Shown in pieces: positions 132 to 23,542 of a DNA stretch of 64,000 bases (the first letter of the stretch is position 1; each line of letters opens with the position of its first letter). A program made the position numbers and the translations under genes. This DNA comes from Owenia fusiformis (Eukaryota; Annelida; Polychaeta; Sabellida; Oweniidae), in contig CAIIXF020000007.1 in the NCBI GenBank assembly GCA_903813345.2, forward strand, positions 193,730 to 257,729. Reading direction: 5' to 3'. Below the pieces are notes generated by a model. It was not told the DNA's origin and ran no database searches. It saw only the letters and a list, made by a program, of their open reading frames with translations.

Positions 132-236
132 CTGATTGCCTCCCATGTTGTGGCACTGCCACATTTTGATTGGCTTGTTCATAGAGTTGGAATCAACTGC
201 ACTGTCCAGGCACCATGGAGAGTGTTTATTACGCAC
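132..236 (-). CDS. GALNT: GALNT coding exon: start of the ricin-type lectin domain
   Basis: This exon encodes residues 522-556 (105 nt, phase 0). It reads VRNKHSPWCLDSAVDSNSMN and KPIKMWQCHNMGGNQ. The Cys-Leu-Asp and Cys-His-x-x-Gly-Gly-Asn-Gln pattern is that of the alpha repeat of the R-type lectin domain found at GALNT C termini, which binds existing GalNAc and guides later additions. The acceptor is CTTTCTAG|GTGCG and the donor CAG|GTGAGG. The remaining roughly 100 residues of the domain must lie beyond base 1, so the gene is incomplete here. Confidence 0.93.
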
Positions 237-540: not shown

Positions 541-669
541 CTCTCCAGAAGCCACAGCTTCACCAGGAATGAATAATTCTGGATATACATTTTTGACATA
601 CCAGTCAAAACTTTTACAATTTAATCTTTTTCTTAAAGCTTTTCTGGCTGAGACATCTCCAAAATCTCC
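541..669 (-). CDS. GALNT: GALNT coding exon: linker between catalytic and lectin domains
   Basis: This exon encodes residues 479-521 (129 nt, phase 0). It contains [20 protein letters not shown], followed by [20 protein letters not shown]. This is the usual GALNT transition in which the Cys-Lys-x-Phe-x-Trp-Tyr block precedes the lectin domain. The acceptor is CTTTTGTAG|GGAGAT and the donor GAG|GTATGT. Confidence 0.95.
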
Positions 670-808: not shown

Positions 809-994
809 CAGATCATAATTAAATCTTTCATAATAATAATTTTTATATTCATCCATCCACACTTCAGCAAGTCGGACAGAATTCTTTTTGACAACATTTA
901 CTCCCGTTTTCCAAGAGTAAGGGCTGCGTTTACGGAAGATATGTCCTACATGGGAGCAGGGTGCAATCTCTAATGTACCACCACACATCCAAAT
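809..994 (-). CDS. GALNT: GALNT coding exon: end of catalytic domain with third metal ligand
   Basis: This exon encodes residues 417-478 (186 nt, phase 0 at both ends). It starts [20 protein letters not shown], where the His of VGH (about residue 434) corresponds to the third Mn2+ ligand of GALNTs. It continues with [20 protein letters not shown], the conserved C-terminal catalytic block. The acceptor is ATTTGCAG|ATTTGG and the donor CTG|GTAAGTGAG. Reading past the donor only yields intron sequence. Confidence 0.97.
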
Positions 995-1361: not shown

Positions 1362-1479
1362 CCTAAAAGAAAGTTCAAGATTTTCCCCTCCCCATATGTC
1401 CATTCCAGGATCATATGTACCTAGCTCCTCAAAGTATTCCCTGCTGATGGAGAACAACCCTCCAGCCATGGTAGGTGAC
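1362..1479 (-). CDS. GALNT: GALNT coding exon with the WGGEN motif
   Basis: This exon encodes residues 377-416 (118 nt; phase 2 in, phase 0 out). It reads [20 protein letters not shown] followed by [23 protein letters not shown] (about 406-410) is the Gal/GalNAc-transferase motif of GT27 enzymes and includes the flexible catalytic loop region. The first base completes the Arg codon split by any of the seven variable exons. The acceptor is TTATTTTAG|GTCACC and the donor AGG|GTAAGG. Confidence 0.97.
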
Positions 1480-2048: not shown

Positions 2049-2262
2049 CTGATAGGGGCCACCTCAGATTTACGCCTTGCTCTCTCTTTAGCTGGGATAC
2101 CATGCCAGTTAAACTGCAGGCCCCAGTCGAACCCACCAATGCTGGTAGACTTAGCGCTACCATGCTGATACTGCAAGTTATCATCTGATATGACATCAAT
2201 GACGGGACAAACTACGTTTCTCTTATCCTCGGCTATGCGGTCTAACAGGGGTTCCAACCACC
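2049..2262 (-). CDS. GALNT: GALNT variable exon copy 7, canonical-type version
   Basis: This is an intact 214-nt exon (phase 1 in, phase 2 out). It has the best acceptor of the cluster (CTCTTTTCTTCAG|GGTGG) and donor AG|GTAGAA. It encodes GWLEPLLDRIAEDKRNVV, CPVIDVISDDNLQYQHGSAK, then the typical GGFDWGLQFNW and HGIPAKERARRKSEVAPI. The Gly-Gly-Phe and the x-Arg-Arg-Lys loop resemble ordinary animal GALNTs far more than the other copies do. It is therefore probably the ancestral or default exon. It lies last in transcript order, 944 nt from copy 6 and 569 nt from the next constitutive exon. Confidence 0.95.
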
Positions 2263-3206
2263 CTGAAGAAAAGAGAGGGGTGGATATAAGATGGGATCTA
2301 GGCTAAGAATAAAACATAATAATACTTTATAAACTAAAAATACACTCCAGGGAGATGGTCCGGGAAGGAGGATGGGATACAAATAACTCAAATCTATTCA
2401 TATTTGACAAAGTGGCAAATGAAACTCCATAACTGGCAAATTGAATTATTTTTGACATGAATGAAATATATGCATTCTGGAAGAAAACAAACACCGCTGT
2501 TTATGCAATATCCCTGAAAAGTCCTGCAACATGCATATCTCAAGATAAGTGAGACAAAATCAAAAGGATCTAGTATGTTCCTCTAAAAGAAGAAGTCTAT
2601 ATTCCTGCTGTCTGTTCTCTCCCTTTCCCTCTGCTATGGGGTAGGGGAGGGGCACTGGTGTAAATGTAGCAGACCACATGGGTCATATTCCCCATTGCCC
2701 ATGGTTTTATTTCACTTTATAAGAAGCTACAACAGACAATCAATATATATGCCATAGTATTAAAAACAGGTGACTAACAGGAATACACTGGTGGTTGTGA
2801 AATGGTCATAAAGCATGGCAGACATGACATTACATGGATTCACATGTACACACAGCCTTTTGGCACATCACTGCAGCCTAAAATCTAGCTTTTAATGATA
2901 GAGATGCAACTCCTGAATCAGAAACTTGAGTTATTACAGCCTGGACAATTGGGCACTTTAATTAAATACATGTAGCTAGTGTTACTTATCAGCAAACAAA
3001 ATGGAAAGGCTAATTTTGTGACTCTTCTAAGGGGCAGTTTAATATAAGAGTTAATTGGTAAAAATTGCTTACAATGCAAGTTAAAAAGTCAGCATTGGAA
3101 CAATATTGTTTCAAAGATTCCTCAAGCCCAGACTACAGTAGTGAGTTGAACTCAAGCTGCACTTTACAGGTAAGTTGCACCTCTAACAAACAATTGTAAT
3201 CTGAAC
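2263..3206 (-). other. Longest intron inside the variable cluster (copy 6 to copy 7)
   Basis: This 944-nt stretch is about twice the length of the other intra-cluster introns. I find no decayed eighth exon copy: no GWLEP-like or DPIR-like coding remains on the minus strand. No transposon ends are seen. Confidence 0.5.
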
Positions 3207-3426
3207 CTGATTGGATCAGAAATCCTCTTCCTGTAGCGCTTCCCATGTACACCAACTTTAACATAATTCCAGTTGAAAATGAGATCCCAGTTAAATATTC
3301 CAATAGGTGCACTCTTGGCTGGGAAAGGTGTATACGCCATAGTGTCATCACTTATAGAGTCAATCATTGGTGTAACAACATTACTTTTATCAACAGCGAT
3401 ACGATCCAATAATGGTTCAAGCCAGC
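3207..3426 (-). CDS. GALNT: GALNT variable exon copy 6, most divergent loop of the series
   Basis: This is an intact 220-nt exon with acceptor CATTTTAG|GCTGG. Its donor AG|GTTCAG is the least consensus-like of the gene. It encodes GWLEPLLDRIAVDKSNVV, then TPMIDSISDDTMAYTPFPAK, then GIFNWDLIFNW followed by NYVKVGVHGKRYRKRISDPI. The Pro-Gly-Leu-Arg loop shared by copies 1-4 (Pro-Gly-Ile-Arg in copy 5) is replaced by a basic, glycine-containing stretch. Phases match the other copies. Confidence 0.91.
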
Positions 3427-3933
3427 CTAAAATGAATATGTGTGCATATTGTCATATTACCGAAAGATCTAGATGGTCAATTTCCTTTTTTATAATTTGT
3501 CTGAATTAAATCTACAAAATAAAAATAAAACTTTGTGTAAAAGTTTCTGTATCAATCAGGACTCCACCAGTTTTACTAAATGCTCTCAGTAATAAAAAGA
3601 AGTGAGACGCAATGCAAAATTTCCAAGGATGCAATATGTAAAAATTATAGGTGCATGAAAGGGGAGAAAGGAGCATAGTGAAATATAGCATACTGAAATC
3701 CCCCATTATATAAGCACAACACATATTTACACCAAGGACCAATGGGAAAGATATATCCTCTTAGCAGAAGTACCCTAGAAGACAGATTTTATCCAATTAT
3801 TGAAAATATAAAAAAATAATAGTGTCACTGCTAAAGAAGACTGAATTCTAATAACATGAGAGGTTGGAGGAGACATCATAACTTCTATGAATACTGAAGT
3901 AACAAATCATGGAATTCCAACTACTATGTGCAC

Positions 3934-4153
3934 CTTATTGGATCAGTGACCCTTTCCCTGTTTCTTATTCCAGGTTCATGTAGTAAAATAGACTTCCATT
4001 TGAAAGTAAGATCCCAGTTAAATATCCCAAACGCTGTCTCTCTGCCTGAGGTATGTCCATATGCCATTGTTTTATCACTTATAGTGTCAATCATGGGGGC
4101 CACCACTACAGTTTTATCAACAGCAATTCTATCTAGTAAAGGTTCAAGCCAAC
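3934..4153 (-). CDS. GALNT: GALNT variable exon copy 5
   Basis: This is an intact 220-nt exon with acceptor ATATTATAG|GTTGG and weak donor AG|GTGCAC. It encodes GWLEPLLDRIAVDKTVVV, then APMIDTISDKTMAYGHTSGR, then GIFNWDLTFKW with loop KSILLHEPGIRNRE and the end VTDPI. The Phe-x-Trp pair is kept and the loop is more divergent than in copies 2-4. The acceptor tract is A-rich and poor in pyrimidines. Confidence 0.92.
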
Positions 4154-4605
4154 CTATAATATATGTATGAATATGTGGTCTGATTATCAGAATGTTTGAT
4201 GGAGTCATCTTCCTTTGGTGTTTATATAATAGAAAGAGTTGTACAGTTTTGGTGATCTATAATCTACAAAAGAAAAGGTCCATATTATATATCAGTAAAT
4301 TCTATATGTGTATATGACCTCCTCTCCCAAAGATTCGCCCAATGCTCCAGAGAAAAAATACATTTTTTTCATGGATATGCAATGCATGAAATCATGAAGA
4401 TGCAGACTGTTAATGAATGAAACTTAAGACGAATGCAGATAAATCCTAGAGGGAACATACAGCTAAGTACAAACAAGAACAACTGGAAAACTGAAGAGAT
4501 CATAACAGGACAGAACAAAAGGTACATAAGCTTGGAAGGAGTGGAGTAAATAACATCTAGTAATGCTAATTAAAGTATTCTGGAAAACCCCGTTAATGTT
4601 AGCAC

Positions 4606-4816
4606 CTTATTGGATCTGTGAATTTCTCTCGATATCTTAGTCCAGGTTTATGTAGTTTAAGAGGTGCCCAATTGAAAACTAGATTCAAGTTGAATATCCC
4701 GATTGATGCAAAGACTTTTGTATATTCCAATGTTTCATCACTTATTGTGTCAATCGTAGGGGCCACTACATTTGTTTTATCAGTTGCGATTCTATCAAGT
4801 AATGGCTCAAGCCAAC
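4606..4816 (-). CDS. GALNT: GALNT variable exon copy 4, three codons shorter, with a Trp to Leu change
   Basis: This is an open 211-nt exon, nine bases shorter than its neighbours but still phase 1 in and phase 2 out. The acceptor is TTTATTTTAG|GTTGG and the donor AG|GTGCTA is weak. Relative to copy 3 the loop between the ISDE block and SIGIF is three residues shorter. The otherwise invariant FNW of the first strand reads FNL. The pocket strand LVFNW-APLKLHKPGLRYRE is intact. The in-frame deletion with preserved splice sites argues for selection, but the lost Trp leaves open that the copy is decaying or has altered activity. Confidence 0.88.
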
Positions 4817-5184
4817 CTAAAATAAACATTTGTAAATAAGTCAAATAGATAAATATTGAAATTGCTATAATATGATCATTTTCCATTGTTATGATATTCG
4901 TGCAACCAAACTTATTTCTTTTTGGCTTTGATGTTTCTCCTATCTACAAATCAAAAGATAATGTTAATTCTACTATAAGAAATATGTATGATCTCTCTCT
5001 TTACCTGATTAAATCCCAGAAAACAATTTTTTCATGAAAACGACAAATCAATGGGAAACACTGTAAATAAACTAGCCAAACTAAAGAAGTCTAAATTGGA
5101 ATTGGTATATAAGGAAAAGAGGGCACAAGAAACATCTAGAAGAAGTGGAATTATATATCCTAAAATGAGAATTATTACTTGCAC

Positions 5185-5404
5185 CTTATTGGATCTGAGA
5201 CTTTCTCTCGGTATCTTAGTCCAGGTTGATGTAGTTTAACAGGTGCCCAGGTGAAAACTAGATCCCAATTAAATATCCCAATTGATGTAGCCCTTGCTGA
5301 TCCATGCGTAAAGTGCAAATCTTCATCACCTATAGCCTCAATAATCGGGCAAACTACATTTGTTTTATCAGTTGCGATTCTATCTAGTAATGGCTCAAGC
5401 CAAC
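5185..5404 (-). CDS. GALNT: GALNT variable exon copy 3
   Basis: This is an intact 220-nt exon. It has no internal ATG in frame, so a simple ORF search overlooks it. The acceptor is TTATTCTAG|GTTGG and the weak donor AG|GTGCAAGT. The encoded segment runs GWLEPLLDRIATDKTNVV, then CPIIEAIGDEDLHFTHGSAR, then GIFNWDLVFTW-APVKLHQ and PGLRYREKVSDPI. It carries Glu like copy 2 in the IIE position and has Gly instead of Ser in the usual ISD triplet. Phase 1 in and phase 2 out, as for all copies. Confidence 0.92.
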
Positions 5405-5639
5405 CTAGAATAACATTTGCGAATACAGGTCAAATAAATGCATGAATATTGCAATTACTAAATGATCATTTTTTATTGGTAATGATTTTCTAATTTTAGG
5501 CTTTGACATTTCCCACATCTACAAAAGAAAAAGCTTAATATTAATTCTAGTCTCAGAGGAATATACGATCTTGCACCTCTCTGATTTAACTGATGACACC
5601 GCAGAAAGCAAATTTATTGGGCTTTATTTCTTAAAATGT

Positions 5640-5830
5640 TAACCAGAAATGAATGGAAAATACTGTAAACTAACCAAACCAAAGAGGTCTAAATGGGAAT
5701 GGGTATACATGTATAAGGAAAAGAGGGAACAAAACAACGTAACCAGAAATGAATGGAAAATACTGTAAACTAACCAAACTAAAGAGGTCTAAATGTGTAA
5801 GAAAAAGAGGGAACAAAAAAAAACATCGAG
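5640..5830. repeat. Local duplication in the intron downstream of variable exon copy 2
   Basis: A block of about 60 bp, beginning ACCAGAAATGAATGGAAAAT and ending in GGTCTAAATG, occurs at 5645-5695 and again at 5741-5795. A diverged relative occurs at 5050-5100, downstream of copy 3. The block therefore follows the donors of copies 2 and 3 in transcript direction and was duplicated along with the exons. Confidence 0.8.
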
Positions 5831-5873
5831 AAGAAGTGGGAAAATATCCCAAATTCATAATTTTTGTTTGCAC

Positions 5874-6093
5874 CTTATCGGATCTGAGACCTTTTCCCGA
5901 TATCTCAGTCCAGGTTGATGTACCTTAAGAGGTGCCCAATTGAAAACTAGATCCCAGTTAAATATCCCAATTGATGTAGTTCTGGCTGATCTATACGTGA
6001 GTTGCAGATCTTCATCACTTATAGTCTCGATTATCGGACAAACTACATTTGTTTTGTCAGTTGCGATTCGATCTAGTAATGGCTCCAGCCAGC
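5874..6093 (-). CDS. GALNT: GALNT variable exon copy 2
   Basis: This is an intact 220-nt exon with acceptor ATAATTTAG|GCTGG and weak donor AG|GTGCAAAC. Codon 22 of the exon is Glu (VVCPIIETISDE) where most family members have Asp. The pocket strand reads GIFNWDLVFNW with Phe and Trp at exon codons 50 and 52, followed by APLKVHQPGLRYRE and DPI. It is closest to copies 3 and 4 (shared VFxW-AP), and its introns also resemble theirs, so these three look like the youngest duplicates. Confidence 0.93.
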
Positions 6094-6585
6094 CTAAATT
6101 ATACATGTTTATAATATAGATGTCATGTTATTATTCAAATTTGCTAAGATAACTGTAGAAAATTGGGAATTCCTTGATCTAAAGACAATCTAAAAAATAA
6201 AGTCTGGTGAAAATTCCTGTATGTGTACATTGTACATGTATACATATTTCAGATGTCTTCCCCGGATGTCTCCCTCTGATTTTTCCATTCTTGCCTAAAA
6301 TGAACAAACTCAAAGCTATCTGAAAGCACCTTCAAAATCTTCAAATGGAACCATCAAATTCCAGACACCAACATGATCTCCCTCAAATACACCTGATGCC
6401 CTCGGGGAAACAAATTGCATAGAATCATAATAGGGATACAGTAACCTACCAATTAATCAAACTACTGAAGTCATTGGTACAGAAGAGGAGAATGACTTGG
6501 CATCATAACATAAACATGAAAAACATGCAAAATAAACTATCCTAAAATTCTAATAATTAGAAATATGGCGTGTGTGTATTTGCAC

Positions 6586-6805
6586 CTTATTGGATCAGTG
6601 ACCTTTTCCCTATATCTCAGTCCAGGTTCTTGAAGTCTAACAGTTTTCCAAGTGAAAATAAGGTCCCAGTTAAAAGCACCAAATGGTGAAGTTCGGCCCG
6701 AGAAACTCGTAATACTTAGATCTTCATCACTTATATTGTCAATCATTGGAGTCACAACATTTTTTTTGTCAGCAGCAATTCGATCAAGTAATGGCTCAAG
6801 CCAAC
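6586..6805 (-). CDS. GALNT: GALNT variable exon copy 1 (transcript order)
   Basis: This is an intact 220-nt exon (phase 1 in, phase 2 out) with acceptor TTTATTTAG|GTTGG and weak donor AG|GTGCAA. It encodes the conserved start GWLEPLLDRIA, then VVTPMIDNISDEDL, then AFNWDLIFTW, with Phe and Trp of the acceptor pocket retained. The following loop, KTVRLQEPGLRYRE, is specific to this copy in its first half. It ends DPI plus a split Arg codon that joins to SPTMAGG in the constitutive exon at 1362-1479. There are no stops or frameshifts. It lies closest to the constitutive donor and directly behind the minisatellite. Confidence 0.93.
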
Positions 6806-6904: not shown

Positions 6905-7696
6905 AACCCAACCTATAAGACAGTAAGTTGGCCTGAGAGCAATGATTTGACCTCATTCAATCACTGAAGCAAGCCTGAAATATGAAAAGCCTGAAATAAA
7001 CAAATGTGCATTTTACCCAACCTATAAGACAGTAAGTTGGTCTGAGAGCAATGATTTGACCTCATTCAATCACTGAAGCAAGCCTGAAATATGAAAAGCC
7101 TGAAATAAACAAATGTGCATTTTACCCAACCTATAAGACAGTAAGTTGGCCTGAGAGCAATGATTTGACCTCATTCAATCACTGAAGCAAGCCTGAAATA
7201 TGAAAAGCCTGAAATAAACAAATGTGCATTTTACCCAACCTATAAGACAGTAAGTTGGTCTGAGAGCAATGATTTGACCTCATTCAATCACTGAAGCAAG
7301 CCTGAAATATGAAAAGCCTGAAATAAACAAATGTGCATTTTACCCAACCTATAAGACAGTAAGTTGGTCTGAGAGCAATGATTTGACCTCATTCAATCAC
7401 TGAAGCAAGCCTGAAATATGAAAAGCCTGAAATAAGCAAATGTGCATTTTACCCAACCTATAAGACAGTAAGTTGGTCTGAGAGCAATGATTTGACCTCA
7501 TTCAATCACTGAAGCAAGCCTGAAATATGAAAAGCCTGAAATAAGCAAATGTGCATTTTACCCAACCTATAAGACAGTAAGTTGGTCTGAGAGCAATGAT
7601 TTGACCTCATTCAATCACTGAAGCAAGCCTGAAATATGAAAAGCCTGAAATAAACAAATGTGCATTTTACCCAACCTATAAGACAGTAAGTTGGTC
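6905..7696. repeat. 109-bp minisatellite, about 7.3 copies
   Basis: Near-identical units begin at about 6905 and recur every 109 bp; the block ACCTATAAGACAGTAAGTTGG starts at 6911, 7020, 7129, 7238, 7347, 7456, 7565 and 7674. Units differ by only a few substitutions (such as AAACAAATG versus AAGCAAATG), so the array is young or homogenised. On the transcript strand each unit contains TTTGTTTATTTCAG|G, ATATTTCAG|G, GCTTCAG|T and GTCTTATAG|GTTGG, all resembling 3' splice sites. It lies in the intron just before variable exon copy 1. Confidence 0.97.
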
Positions 7697-7996: not shown

Positions 7997-8167
7997 CTTT
8001 AGTGCATTCACAGTGAGAGTCGAGATAAGTGAGAACAGAGCCGATGGCATGTGAGGCTCCCAGAAGTCTGGCACGGATGAGACCCTCTCGCTTCTTTGTG
8101 CGTACAACCCTTGCCTTTCCCTTGAATTGGTCAAGTAGGTAATTGTTGAGTTTCTCTTTAAGATGAG
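7997..8167 (-). CDS. GALNT: GALNT coding exon with the DxH metal-binding motif
   Basis: This exon encodes residues 247-303 plus one base of codon 304 (171 nt; phase 1 out). It contains [16 protein letters not shown] and then YLDSHCE, in which Asp296-Ser-His298 is the DxH motif that coordinates Mn2+ and UDP in GT27 enzymes. The donor G|GTAAGG is strong. It is the common 5' partner of the seven variable exons, each of which completes the split Gly codon and continues Trp-Leu-Glu-Pro. The intron to the first variable exon is 1,191 nt and contains a 109-bp minisatellite. Confidence 0.97.
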
Positions 8168-21428: not shown

Positions 21429-21595
21429 GTAAATCTGAATAATCATCCACCAGTATGATTTCTTTAATTAGTTCTGGAGGTGATCTGTCGATGACACTGT
21501 GGACTGTACGCAACAAGACGGACCAAGCCTCATTGTGGAAACATATTATGACACTGGTATCAGGAAGGTTGGAGTGGTACGACAGTGGCTTGCAT
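21429..21595 (-). CDS. GALNT: GALNT coding exon: GT-A nucleotide-sugar binding fold with HNEAW motif
   Basis: This exon encodes residues 191-246 plus one base of codon 247 (167 nt; phase 2 in, phase 1 out). It carries the family hallmark [17 protein letters not shown] at about residues 210-226, followed by [18 protein letters not shown]. This is the N-terminal half of the GT27 GT-A fold that binds UDP-GalNAc. The acceptor is TTTCAG|ATGC and the donor C|GTAAGTAG. The following intron (8168-21428) is about 13.3 kb and is filled with transposable elements. Confidence 0.97.
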
Positions 21596-22621: not shown

Positions 22622-22982
22622 CTACAAACATTCCATACACTTGAGGTTAGTATGTGTCCTCTGTATAAGCTTAAATTGTCTCATTGTGGCTTGATTATGG
22701 GAAGAAGCACTATTCATAATTAAATCAACTGAAACTATGTAATTGAAAATATATATTTGAAAGTCTGAATTTTCATACTTGATCTCACTAAAGTTTTTAC
22801 CAGTTTATTTATCACTTGGAAGAAATAATAATAAGAGTCTGTTGTTATTTATCTTGAAAAAATTGTTCATGTACAATTTCTATGCATAATTTCCATGTAT
22901 CATTTTTGTAATGTCACAAGATTCCATGAACAATAAATTGATGTAATTTTAGATTTGACCTTCATTGTAAGTTGGTACTCAC
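22622..22982. other. GALNT intron, nothing else seen
   Basis: This 361-nt AT-rich intron follows the first coding exon, with donor GTGAGT and acceptor TTTGTAG. It contains no repeats. Confidence 0.65.
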
Positions 22983-23400
22983 CAGGTTTATTTGGATCTT
23001 CTGTGGTGGTCTTAATTTTGTGAACACCATGGGCGCCTCCCAACTGCATATTATTACTTTTATCATTTGGTTTAAACCTTAAATTGTCATCTGGCTTATT
23101 ATCTGGATCATCATGTATTCTCCTCCCTAAGTTATCCCCTTTGCCATGTATATCATCATCTGGGACTGGGACTATTTCAATTCTGTCATTAGGATTATCT
23201 ACAACTGGTTGTACATGATGATCTTGTGGTGGTTCATGAATATTCACTGCCGCCCTATTAAATTTTGGATGTGGTGAGTCAGGATCCTCAATGTCACTTT
23301 TACCACCTCCGGTAAATGTTGTTATTCCTATGGCTATAAACCATAGTATTGGAATGGCTAGGACTAATTTAAATATGAGACTACGACGTCTACGCAGCAT
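22983..23400 (-). CDS. GALNT: GALNT first coding exon: cytosolic tail, membrane anchor and stem
   Basis: This exon encodes residues 1-139 plus one base of codon 140. The protein begins Met-Leu followed by four Arg, then a hydrophobic stretch at about residues 9-29. That is the type II signal anchor expected of a Golgi glycosyltransferase. Residues 30-139 form a Pro/Asp/Asn-rich, low-complexity stem without domain signatures, as is usual for GALNT stems. The start is chosen because it is the first Met of the frame and directly precedes the basic tail and anchor. The donor is G|GTGAGT (intron phase 1) and joins in frame to the exon at 22468-22621. The family assignment rests on the downstream exons; alone this exon would only suggest a type II membrane protein. 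Confidence 0.93.
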
Positions 23401-23542
23401 GATGCAGCAGTGTTAGTTAGAACCGTTGTTGTAGAACACGGTCACTTATATTGAGCTTTTGGAAAAGTTGAGCTTGAGCCGTTGCATATAGGAAAGTATA
23501 GCTTTTGTCACCTGCTTTGTTCAAGCATCTTTTAAACACAAT
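23401..23542 (-). other. GALNT: GALNT 5' UTR part of the start-codon exon, with a short upstream ORF
   Basis: Directly upstream of the start codon, a good 3' splice site (pyrimidine-rich tract ending TTTGCTTTCAG) places the exon start at 23542. At least one further non-coding exon must then lie to the right, at a position I cannot determine. The 142-nt leader contains an ATG at 23487 that opens a 13-codon upstream ORF ending in TAA at 23446-23448, 45 nt before the main start. Such an uORF could lower translation, but that is inference. If transcription instead starts inside this segment, the acceptor is fortuitous. Confidence 0.6.

Follow-up and report, generated by a model that had tools for sequence, protein, structure and literature searches.

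The 64,000-nucleotide (nt) stretch of Owenia fusiformis DNA analysed here (contig CAIIXF020000007.1, positions 193,730 to 257,729; hereafter the window) very probably carries a cluster of seven mutually exclusive exons, located in a polypeptide GalNAc-transferase (GALNT) gene and, judging from its sequence, changing the choice of acceptor. The array spans positions 2049–6805 on the minus strand (coordinates of gene parts are window positions in plus-strand numbering) and comprises seven intact homologous exons, c1 to c7, of 211–220 nt, all of a length of one modulo three (1 mod 3). An AG precedes and a GT follows each of the seven, and none contains a stop in its proper frame. When the shared exon upstream of the array, every subset of the copies, and the shared exon downstream were joined, a single copy gave an open, in-frame product in all cases (7/7), and zero or two to seven copies in none (0/121). 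An earlier note on this DNA had described seven intact tandem homologous exons running from phase 1 to phase 2, all 1 mod 3; coordinates, phases and lengths were confirmed, and its statement that two copies or none break the frame agrees with the joining test.

Under the proposed mechanism each mature mRNA would take exactly one copy. Transcripts with none or several lose the frame and then meet a stop, and RNAs broken in this way would be discarded. Lengths that are not multiples of three have been reported in 377 (60%) human mutually exclusive clusters (PMC5740500), a figure by which frame-breaking length is common among such exons, not universal. The introns between copies measure 368–944 nt; at such distances crowded splice sites do not explain the exclusion. 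Pairwise identity among the copies is 47–87% in DNA and 49–86% in protein; they are therefore not assembly duplicates, and a chance origin is excluded because copy 7 is homologous to a solved GalNAc-transferase (E 1.8e-23).

The loss of frame in all combinations but single inclusion, together with the weak donors described below, would also fit a set of ordinary cassettes in which frameshifts by multiple inclusion or skipping switch the gene off, protein diversity being a by-product. We consider this extremely improbable, as one poison exon would be enough for such a purpose, and six further coding copies under purifying selection would not be needed.

The gene and its constant exons

By the sequence of its GT-A catalytic domain the window gene is a polypeptide GalNAc-transferase. 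Read on the minus strand, it runs from an anchor-like first exon through an N-terminal catalytic exon and the upstream shared exon to the array, and from there through the downstream shared exon, the gating-loop exon and the exon for the end of the catalytic domain and the linker to a lectin-like exon (Table 1); two more lectin-like exons, three in all, were recognised by eye past the window start, in locus L003. The 230-residue product containing copy 7 matches the Pfam families PF00535 (3.9e-22) and PF02709 (1.1e-8) and, among solved relatives, PGANT9 (1.4e-109) and T1 (6e-91). PGANT9 is the top-scoring of these, with 154 of 226 aligned residues identical to the copy-7 form. The family motifs are located in shared exons: DSHCEC in the upstream one, DIWGGEN in the downstream one and GHIFRK in the gating-loop exon. 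DxH is the metal-binding motif of the family, and WGGEN and GHxFR are active-site motifs. Members also have a type II membrane anchor and, at the C-terminus, a ricin-type lectin domain, for which the anchor-like and lectin-like exons, read by eye, are candidates. Within L003 and window positions 1–22500 neither a duplicated gating-loop exon nor a second lectin alpha exon of the window gene was found, the search for the latter returning a single alpha-type exon, with the other hits either to the beta-type exon or weak.

The variable exon and the acceptor groove

The variable exon aligns to residues 233–302 of human GalNAc-T2 (T2). The acceptor contacts described for T2 are Val255, Phe361, His365, Leu270, Phe377, Phe280, Trp282 and Tyr284, and the exchange Trp282Ala nearly abolishes its activity (PMC4432651). 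Five of the eight fall within the variable exon, namely Val255, Leu270, Phe280, Trp282 and Tyr284. Phe280 and Trp282 are retained as F and W in all seven copies; position 255 reads N, T, A, T, T, S, V in c1 to c7, and position 284, by ungapped count from Trp282, reads T, P, P, P, S, Y, G. Because these contacts are in the variable exon and the DxH motif (one exon upstream of the array) and WGGEN and GHxFR (in exons downstream of it) are all in shared exons, the array, as placed by the T2 alignment, changes the acceptor groove on one side, with the motifs for donor and catalysis left as they are.

On the same alignment, the 70–73 residues swapped between forms make up part of the acceptor-peptide groove; the constant parts comprise the gating loop, the lectin domain and the motifs of metal binding and of the active site. 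Since the exchanged segment is predicted to lie in the groove, the rest being constant, the seven enzymes would be expected to add GalNAc at different Ser/Thr sites. We infer a retuning of acceptor preference by exon choice from the variation of the groove contacts by copy, backed by analogy with the splice forms of fly pgant9 and pgant5 discussed below. The proposal of the earlier note that one gene makes seven GalNAc-transferases differing in one catalytic segment is supported as a prediction, by these contacts and by the purifying selection on c1–c6 reported in the next section. A PGANT9-like charge switch was considered as the common theme and rejected: the net charges of the seven segments range from −3 to +1, and charge alone is insufficient.

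The copies might instead be alternatively spliced into inactive or altered products, which would act as decoys or Golgi lectins or would restrain other GALNTs. The second glycine of the GGF motif is replaced by Ala or Ile in all of c1–c6, and c4 is without a Trp in the GGF stretch, as might be expected of such products. Yet Phe280 is present in 7/7 copies, and so is Trp282, on which T2 activity depends (PMC4432651); the active-site exons are common to all forms, and the two-way cases of the fly are, in the passages quoted, active enzymes with different substrates. We therefore hold inactive products to be improbable, although of the alternatives set out here this one deserves the most weight.

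Selection and history of the copies

Copies c1–c6 form one clade (support 100/99) with c7 outside it, in a tree of 17 rows of which 10 of the 14 inner branches have less than 80% support, the bootstrap being short of fully settled. Over the variable exon, c7 is 54–55% identical to PGANT9, T1, T2 and T12, and c1–c6 are 37–52% identical to them; c7 is the copy closest to single-copy GALNT exons and would represent an ancestral-type default. A codon model applied to c1–c6 on a fixed tree gave a ratio of non-synonymous to synonymous rates (omega) of 0.25, with a twofold log-likelihood difference of 64.9 against omega 1. The values for the terminal branches are 0.30 (c1), 0.06 (c2), 0.20 (c3), 0.19 (c4), 0.44 (c5) and 0.21 (c6), and omega 1 is rejected (p<0.05) on four of the six, those of c1, c2, c4 and c6. 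All 15 pairs among c1–c6 have dN/dS of 0.12–0.51, and synonymous divergence (dS) against c7 is saturated in 6/6 pairs. Given the overall omega and the pairwise ratios, the extra copies c1–c6 appear to have been kept for their protein sequence.

The same data bear on the view that only copy 7 is used and that c1–c6 are silent or nearly silent tandem duplicates. Copy 7 does have the most pyrimidine-rich acceptor and looks like an ordinary GALNT exon; however, all six extra copies keep their frame and splice ends despite dS of 0.32–1.86, and dead exons would gather stops and drift to an omega near 1, not 0.25. Silent duplicates are for these reasons quite unlikely.

Splice signals and intronic elements

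A G at donor position +5 is found in none of the seven variable exons and in all six of the shared exons with donors read, which are not all exons of the gene (Fisher p 0.0006). Of six homologous single-copy exons from other GALNT-like genes, with ends set by eye, five carry this G (p 0.005 against the same 0/7); both p values overstate independence, the copies being related. Donors lacking the +5 G in all seven copies would suit a choice made by regulators.

An acceptor-like intronic element, TTTTCTTTTGTAGAT, lies 127 nt before c3, and relatives of it precede c4, c5 and c6, with a weaker one before c2 (Table 1). With at most two mismatches, and 98–140 nt before c3–c6, it occurs in four of eight introns against one of 240 control segments, although the motif was picked from these very introns. 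Introns 2–6 align at 40–52%, but introns 3 and 4 at 71%. The element may serve as a decoy acceptor or a regulator site, or be a relic.

The intron before c1 contains a 109-bp minisatellite of 7.3 copies with 99% matches, and all eight hits of a genome search with this repeat fall within the minisatellite itself. A role for it as a docking array was considered and rejected as having no support beyond its position.

Tandem exon copies in other GALNT-like loci

The genome (498 Mb in 525 contigs, C2, C6, C7 and C8 among them; individual loci bear L numbers) was searched with protein sequence, and the matches, at least 41, were sorted into 17 GALNT-like loci among the matches listed. Nine of these have introns in the region and were read at least partly; eight are in long open frames, four of which were fetched. 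Tandem exon copies are present in four of the nine intron-bearing loci, the window gene included.

The largest of the other arrays belongs to a GALNT2-like gene, so labelled after comparison with T2 by search, on contig C8 (C8:11442340-11451307; loci L001 and L002). It consists of six copies of the gating-loop exon, all 1 mod 3, and in a frame test a single copy was open in 6/6 cases and other numbers of copies in 0/58. The residues corresponding to T2 His359 and Arg362 are invariant in all six, Phe361 is F in five and Y in one, and His365 varies. None of the six donors has the +5 G, against 7/7 shared exons read (one end assumed). Partial repeats of the acceptor and exon start occur directly before the last copy.

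Two further genes, which by resemblance are GALNT1-like (L004) and GALNT10-like (L005), have two loop-exon copies of 181 nt each and three of 105, 99 and 111 nt, respectively. Copies one and two of the GALNT10-like array agree in their initial 25 residues and diverge at the gate. The GALNT2-like six-way array and the GALNT1-like pair, as parallel arrays in the same genome, were counted in favour of a mutually exclusive cluster in the window gene.

Several observations weigh against that interpretation. The three-way GALNT10-like array is 0 mod 3 and not frame-locked, and the +5 G is present in all five donors of the GALNT1-like pair and the GALNT10-like triple, so weak donors are no rule for such arrays. 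In the window gene itself the weak donors may have been inherited from one ancestral exon, and would then not amount to seven independent observations. On the side of selection, the branches of c3 (p 0.17) and c5 (p 0.19) are singly compatible with omega 1, and c4 is without three codons and a Trp kept by the other six copies. As regards the groove, the aligner places a gap right after Trp282 in c7, by which position 284 becomes His, not Gly, and the T2 alignment has gaps around Leu270, which leaves position 270 unassignable. Finally, under Dscam-type control a docking site in a flanking intron would pair with a selector ahead of every copy; a docking-selector scan of 85 candidate 40-mers from introns 1 and 8 against introns 2–7 gave no clear winner, the AT-rich introns leaving it low power; the top mean gain was 2.9 kcal/mol over five shuffles, with a candidate mean of +0.3 and a standard deviation of 1.1.

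Relation to known systems

Alternative exons within a GALNT gene are known from flies. The A and B forms of pgant9 differ by alternative exons in the lectin alpha subunit, which change substrate choice and are used by tissue (PMC6115407). The comparison with PGANT9 made in the earlier note is apt insofar as both cases involve alternative exons within one GALNT gene and PGANT9 is the top-scoring solved relative; it fails with respect to the domain, since the fly switch is two-way and in the lectin alpha subunit, whereas the window array is seven-way and in the catalytic domain, and one lectin alpha-type exon was found here. Closer in position is pgant5, whose two forms, A and B, differ in the gating loop and helices, one flexible-loop residue shifting substrate preference (PMC12776162). 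The window array resembles it in that its alternative exons encode part of a GALNT catalytic domain, and differs in that it is seven-way, affects the preceding acceptor-groove exon and belongs to a different gene. Gating-loop duplication of the pgant5 type was not found for the window gene within L003 and window positions 1–22500 and is present in three other GALNT-like genes; the GALNT1-like pair occupies what looks like the stretch alternatively spliced in fly pgant5. GALNT13/Pgant5/gly-5 is also named among genes with tandem exon duplications across vertebrates, arthropods and nematodes, the passage quoted stating neither copy number nor exon (PMC9741552).

As a structure, the array is comparable to Dscam, MRP and Mhc, in which tandem homologous exons are likewise present and one is chosen. 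Fly clusters with at least three exons include those of Dscam (48, 33 and 12), MRP (8), Mhc (5 and 3) and TepII (5), others having 3–4 (PMC6071210); seven would rank just below MRP, and no GALNT appears in the quoted part of that list. The earlier note knew of no seven-exon array in the catalytic domain of a GALNT. This stands as far as size is concerned, as no GALNT array beyond two-way switches was found in the open-access papers of PubMed Central, the extent of the search (subscription papers and genome annotations lie outside it), seen in the passages returned; the note omitted, however, the catalytic-domain precedents, pgant5 and GALNT13/Pgant5/gly-5. A query on splice forms of C. elegans gly-5 returned no paper from this literature. 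Papers on lophotrochozoan exon arrays contained, in what was returned of them and among the matches listed, none on GALNT. Within the open-access literature searched, the array is thus of a known kind, and new in its seven-way scale, in the groove exon affected and in the parallel six-way array of the same genome.

Taken together, the predicted arrays suggest that exon cassettes have arisen on either side of the acceptor groove, in different genes of this animal. It is conceivable, though we put it forward tentatively and at somewhat less than even chances, that O-glycosylation is diversified here by splicing and not just by more genes: the Phe280/Trp282 side in seven versions, the Phe361/His365/Phe377 gating loop in six in the GALNT2-like gene, in three in the GALNT10-like and in two in the GALNT1-like gene, in all as many as 18 acceptor sites encoded through the splicing of four genes, with the choice depending on tissue and suited to the mucins made there. 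One gene could yield seven enzymes, which may modify different proteins. Site choice by GalNAc-transferases is a long-standing question, for which natural sets of enzymes differing in one groove exon are near-ideal experiments; if the prediction holds, seven forms varying on one groove side and six varying in the gating loop would make it possible to trace specificity to single segments. In that case, splicing as a source of O-glycan diversity, two-way in flies, would also prove scalable and would have arisen more than once.

Features and minor observations

Table 1. Features of the window gene, its introns and other GALNT-like loci (window positions unless a contig or locus is named)
Feature	Position	Strand	Basis
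Probable first coding exon, anchor-like then stem: MLRRRRSLIFKLVLAIPILWFIAIG	open frame 22900..23412	-	read by eye; exact exon end approximate
N-terminal catalytic exon (...VDDYSDL)	21429..21595	-	ends set by eye
Upstream shared exon, 171 nt, DxH motif (DSHCECTK), ends phase 1	7997..8167	-	frame analysis
Minisatellite, intron before c1	6906..7696	.
Variable exon copy 1 (c1), 220 nt	6586..6805	-	splice ends, open frame
Variable exon copy 2 (c2), 220 nt	5874..6093	-	splice ends, open frame
Variable exon copy 3 (c3), 220 nt; groups with c2 in tree	5185..5404	-	splice ends, open frame
Variable exon copy 4 (c4), 211 nt; three codons fewer; Leu for Trp at T2 position 276	4606..4816	-	splice ends, open frame
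Variable exon copy 5 (c5), 220 nt	3934..4153	-	splice ends, open frame
Variable exon copy 6 (c6), 220 nt	3207..3426	-	splice ends, open frame
Variable exon copy 7 (c7), 214 nt	2049..2262	-	splice ends, open frame
Acceptor-like element TTTTCTTTTGTAGAT before c3	5517..5531	-	motif comparison
Relatives of TTTTCTTTTGTAGAT: before c4, c5, c6; weaker before c2	4942-4956, 4262-4276, 3510-3524; 6188-6202	-
Downstream shared exon, 118 nt (SPTMAGGLF...), starts phase 2	1362..1479	-	frame analysis
Catalytic gating-loop exon, single (IWMCGG...)	809..994	-	one copy found in L003 and window 1-22500
Shared exon, catalytic domain end and linker	541..669	-
Lectin-like exon (CLDS...QCHNMGGNQ)	132..236	-	motifs by eye
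GALNT2-like array, six copies	C8:11451160-11451307, 11450255-11450393, 11448311-11448449, 11445796-11445928, 11444541-11444682, 11442340-11442466
GALNT1-like pair	C7:34137160-34137340, 34136770-34136950
GALNT10-like triple	C2:21043166-21043270, 21043936-21044034, 21044644-21044754
Long-open-frame GALNT-like loci	L014, L015, L016, C7:14.298 Mb, C6:32.54 Mb, C8:27.70 Mb

The haemoglobin-linker family Eryth_link_C, a marker of annelids, scored above its cut-off in this genome and in none of 14 control genomes; a molluscan haemocyanin family matched neither here nor in the controls, and a mitochondrial COX1 query had no match. A simple repeat, SVSQSVSQ in the minus-strand reading, occurs past the lectin-like exons of the window gene, at about 5400–5600 of L003. 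On the minus strand of L008, at about 5500–6080, several units of a 66-bp tandem repeat share one open frame; the repeat derives from the final part of a GALNT-like loop exon (VGHIFRASHPYDMG...) plus the donor of that exon. The GALNT-like loci in long open frames, of 289–763 residues and with some matches crossing a stop, look as if copied from mRNA; they include two pairs, one adjoining in L014 and one, at C8:27.70 Mb, separated by about 11 kb.

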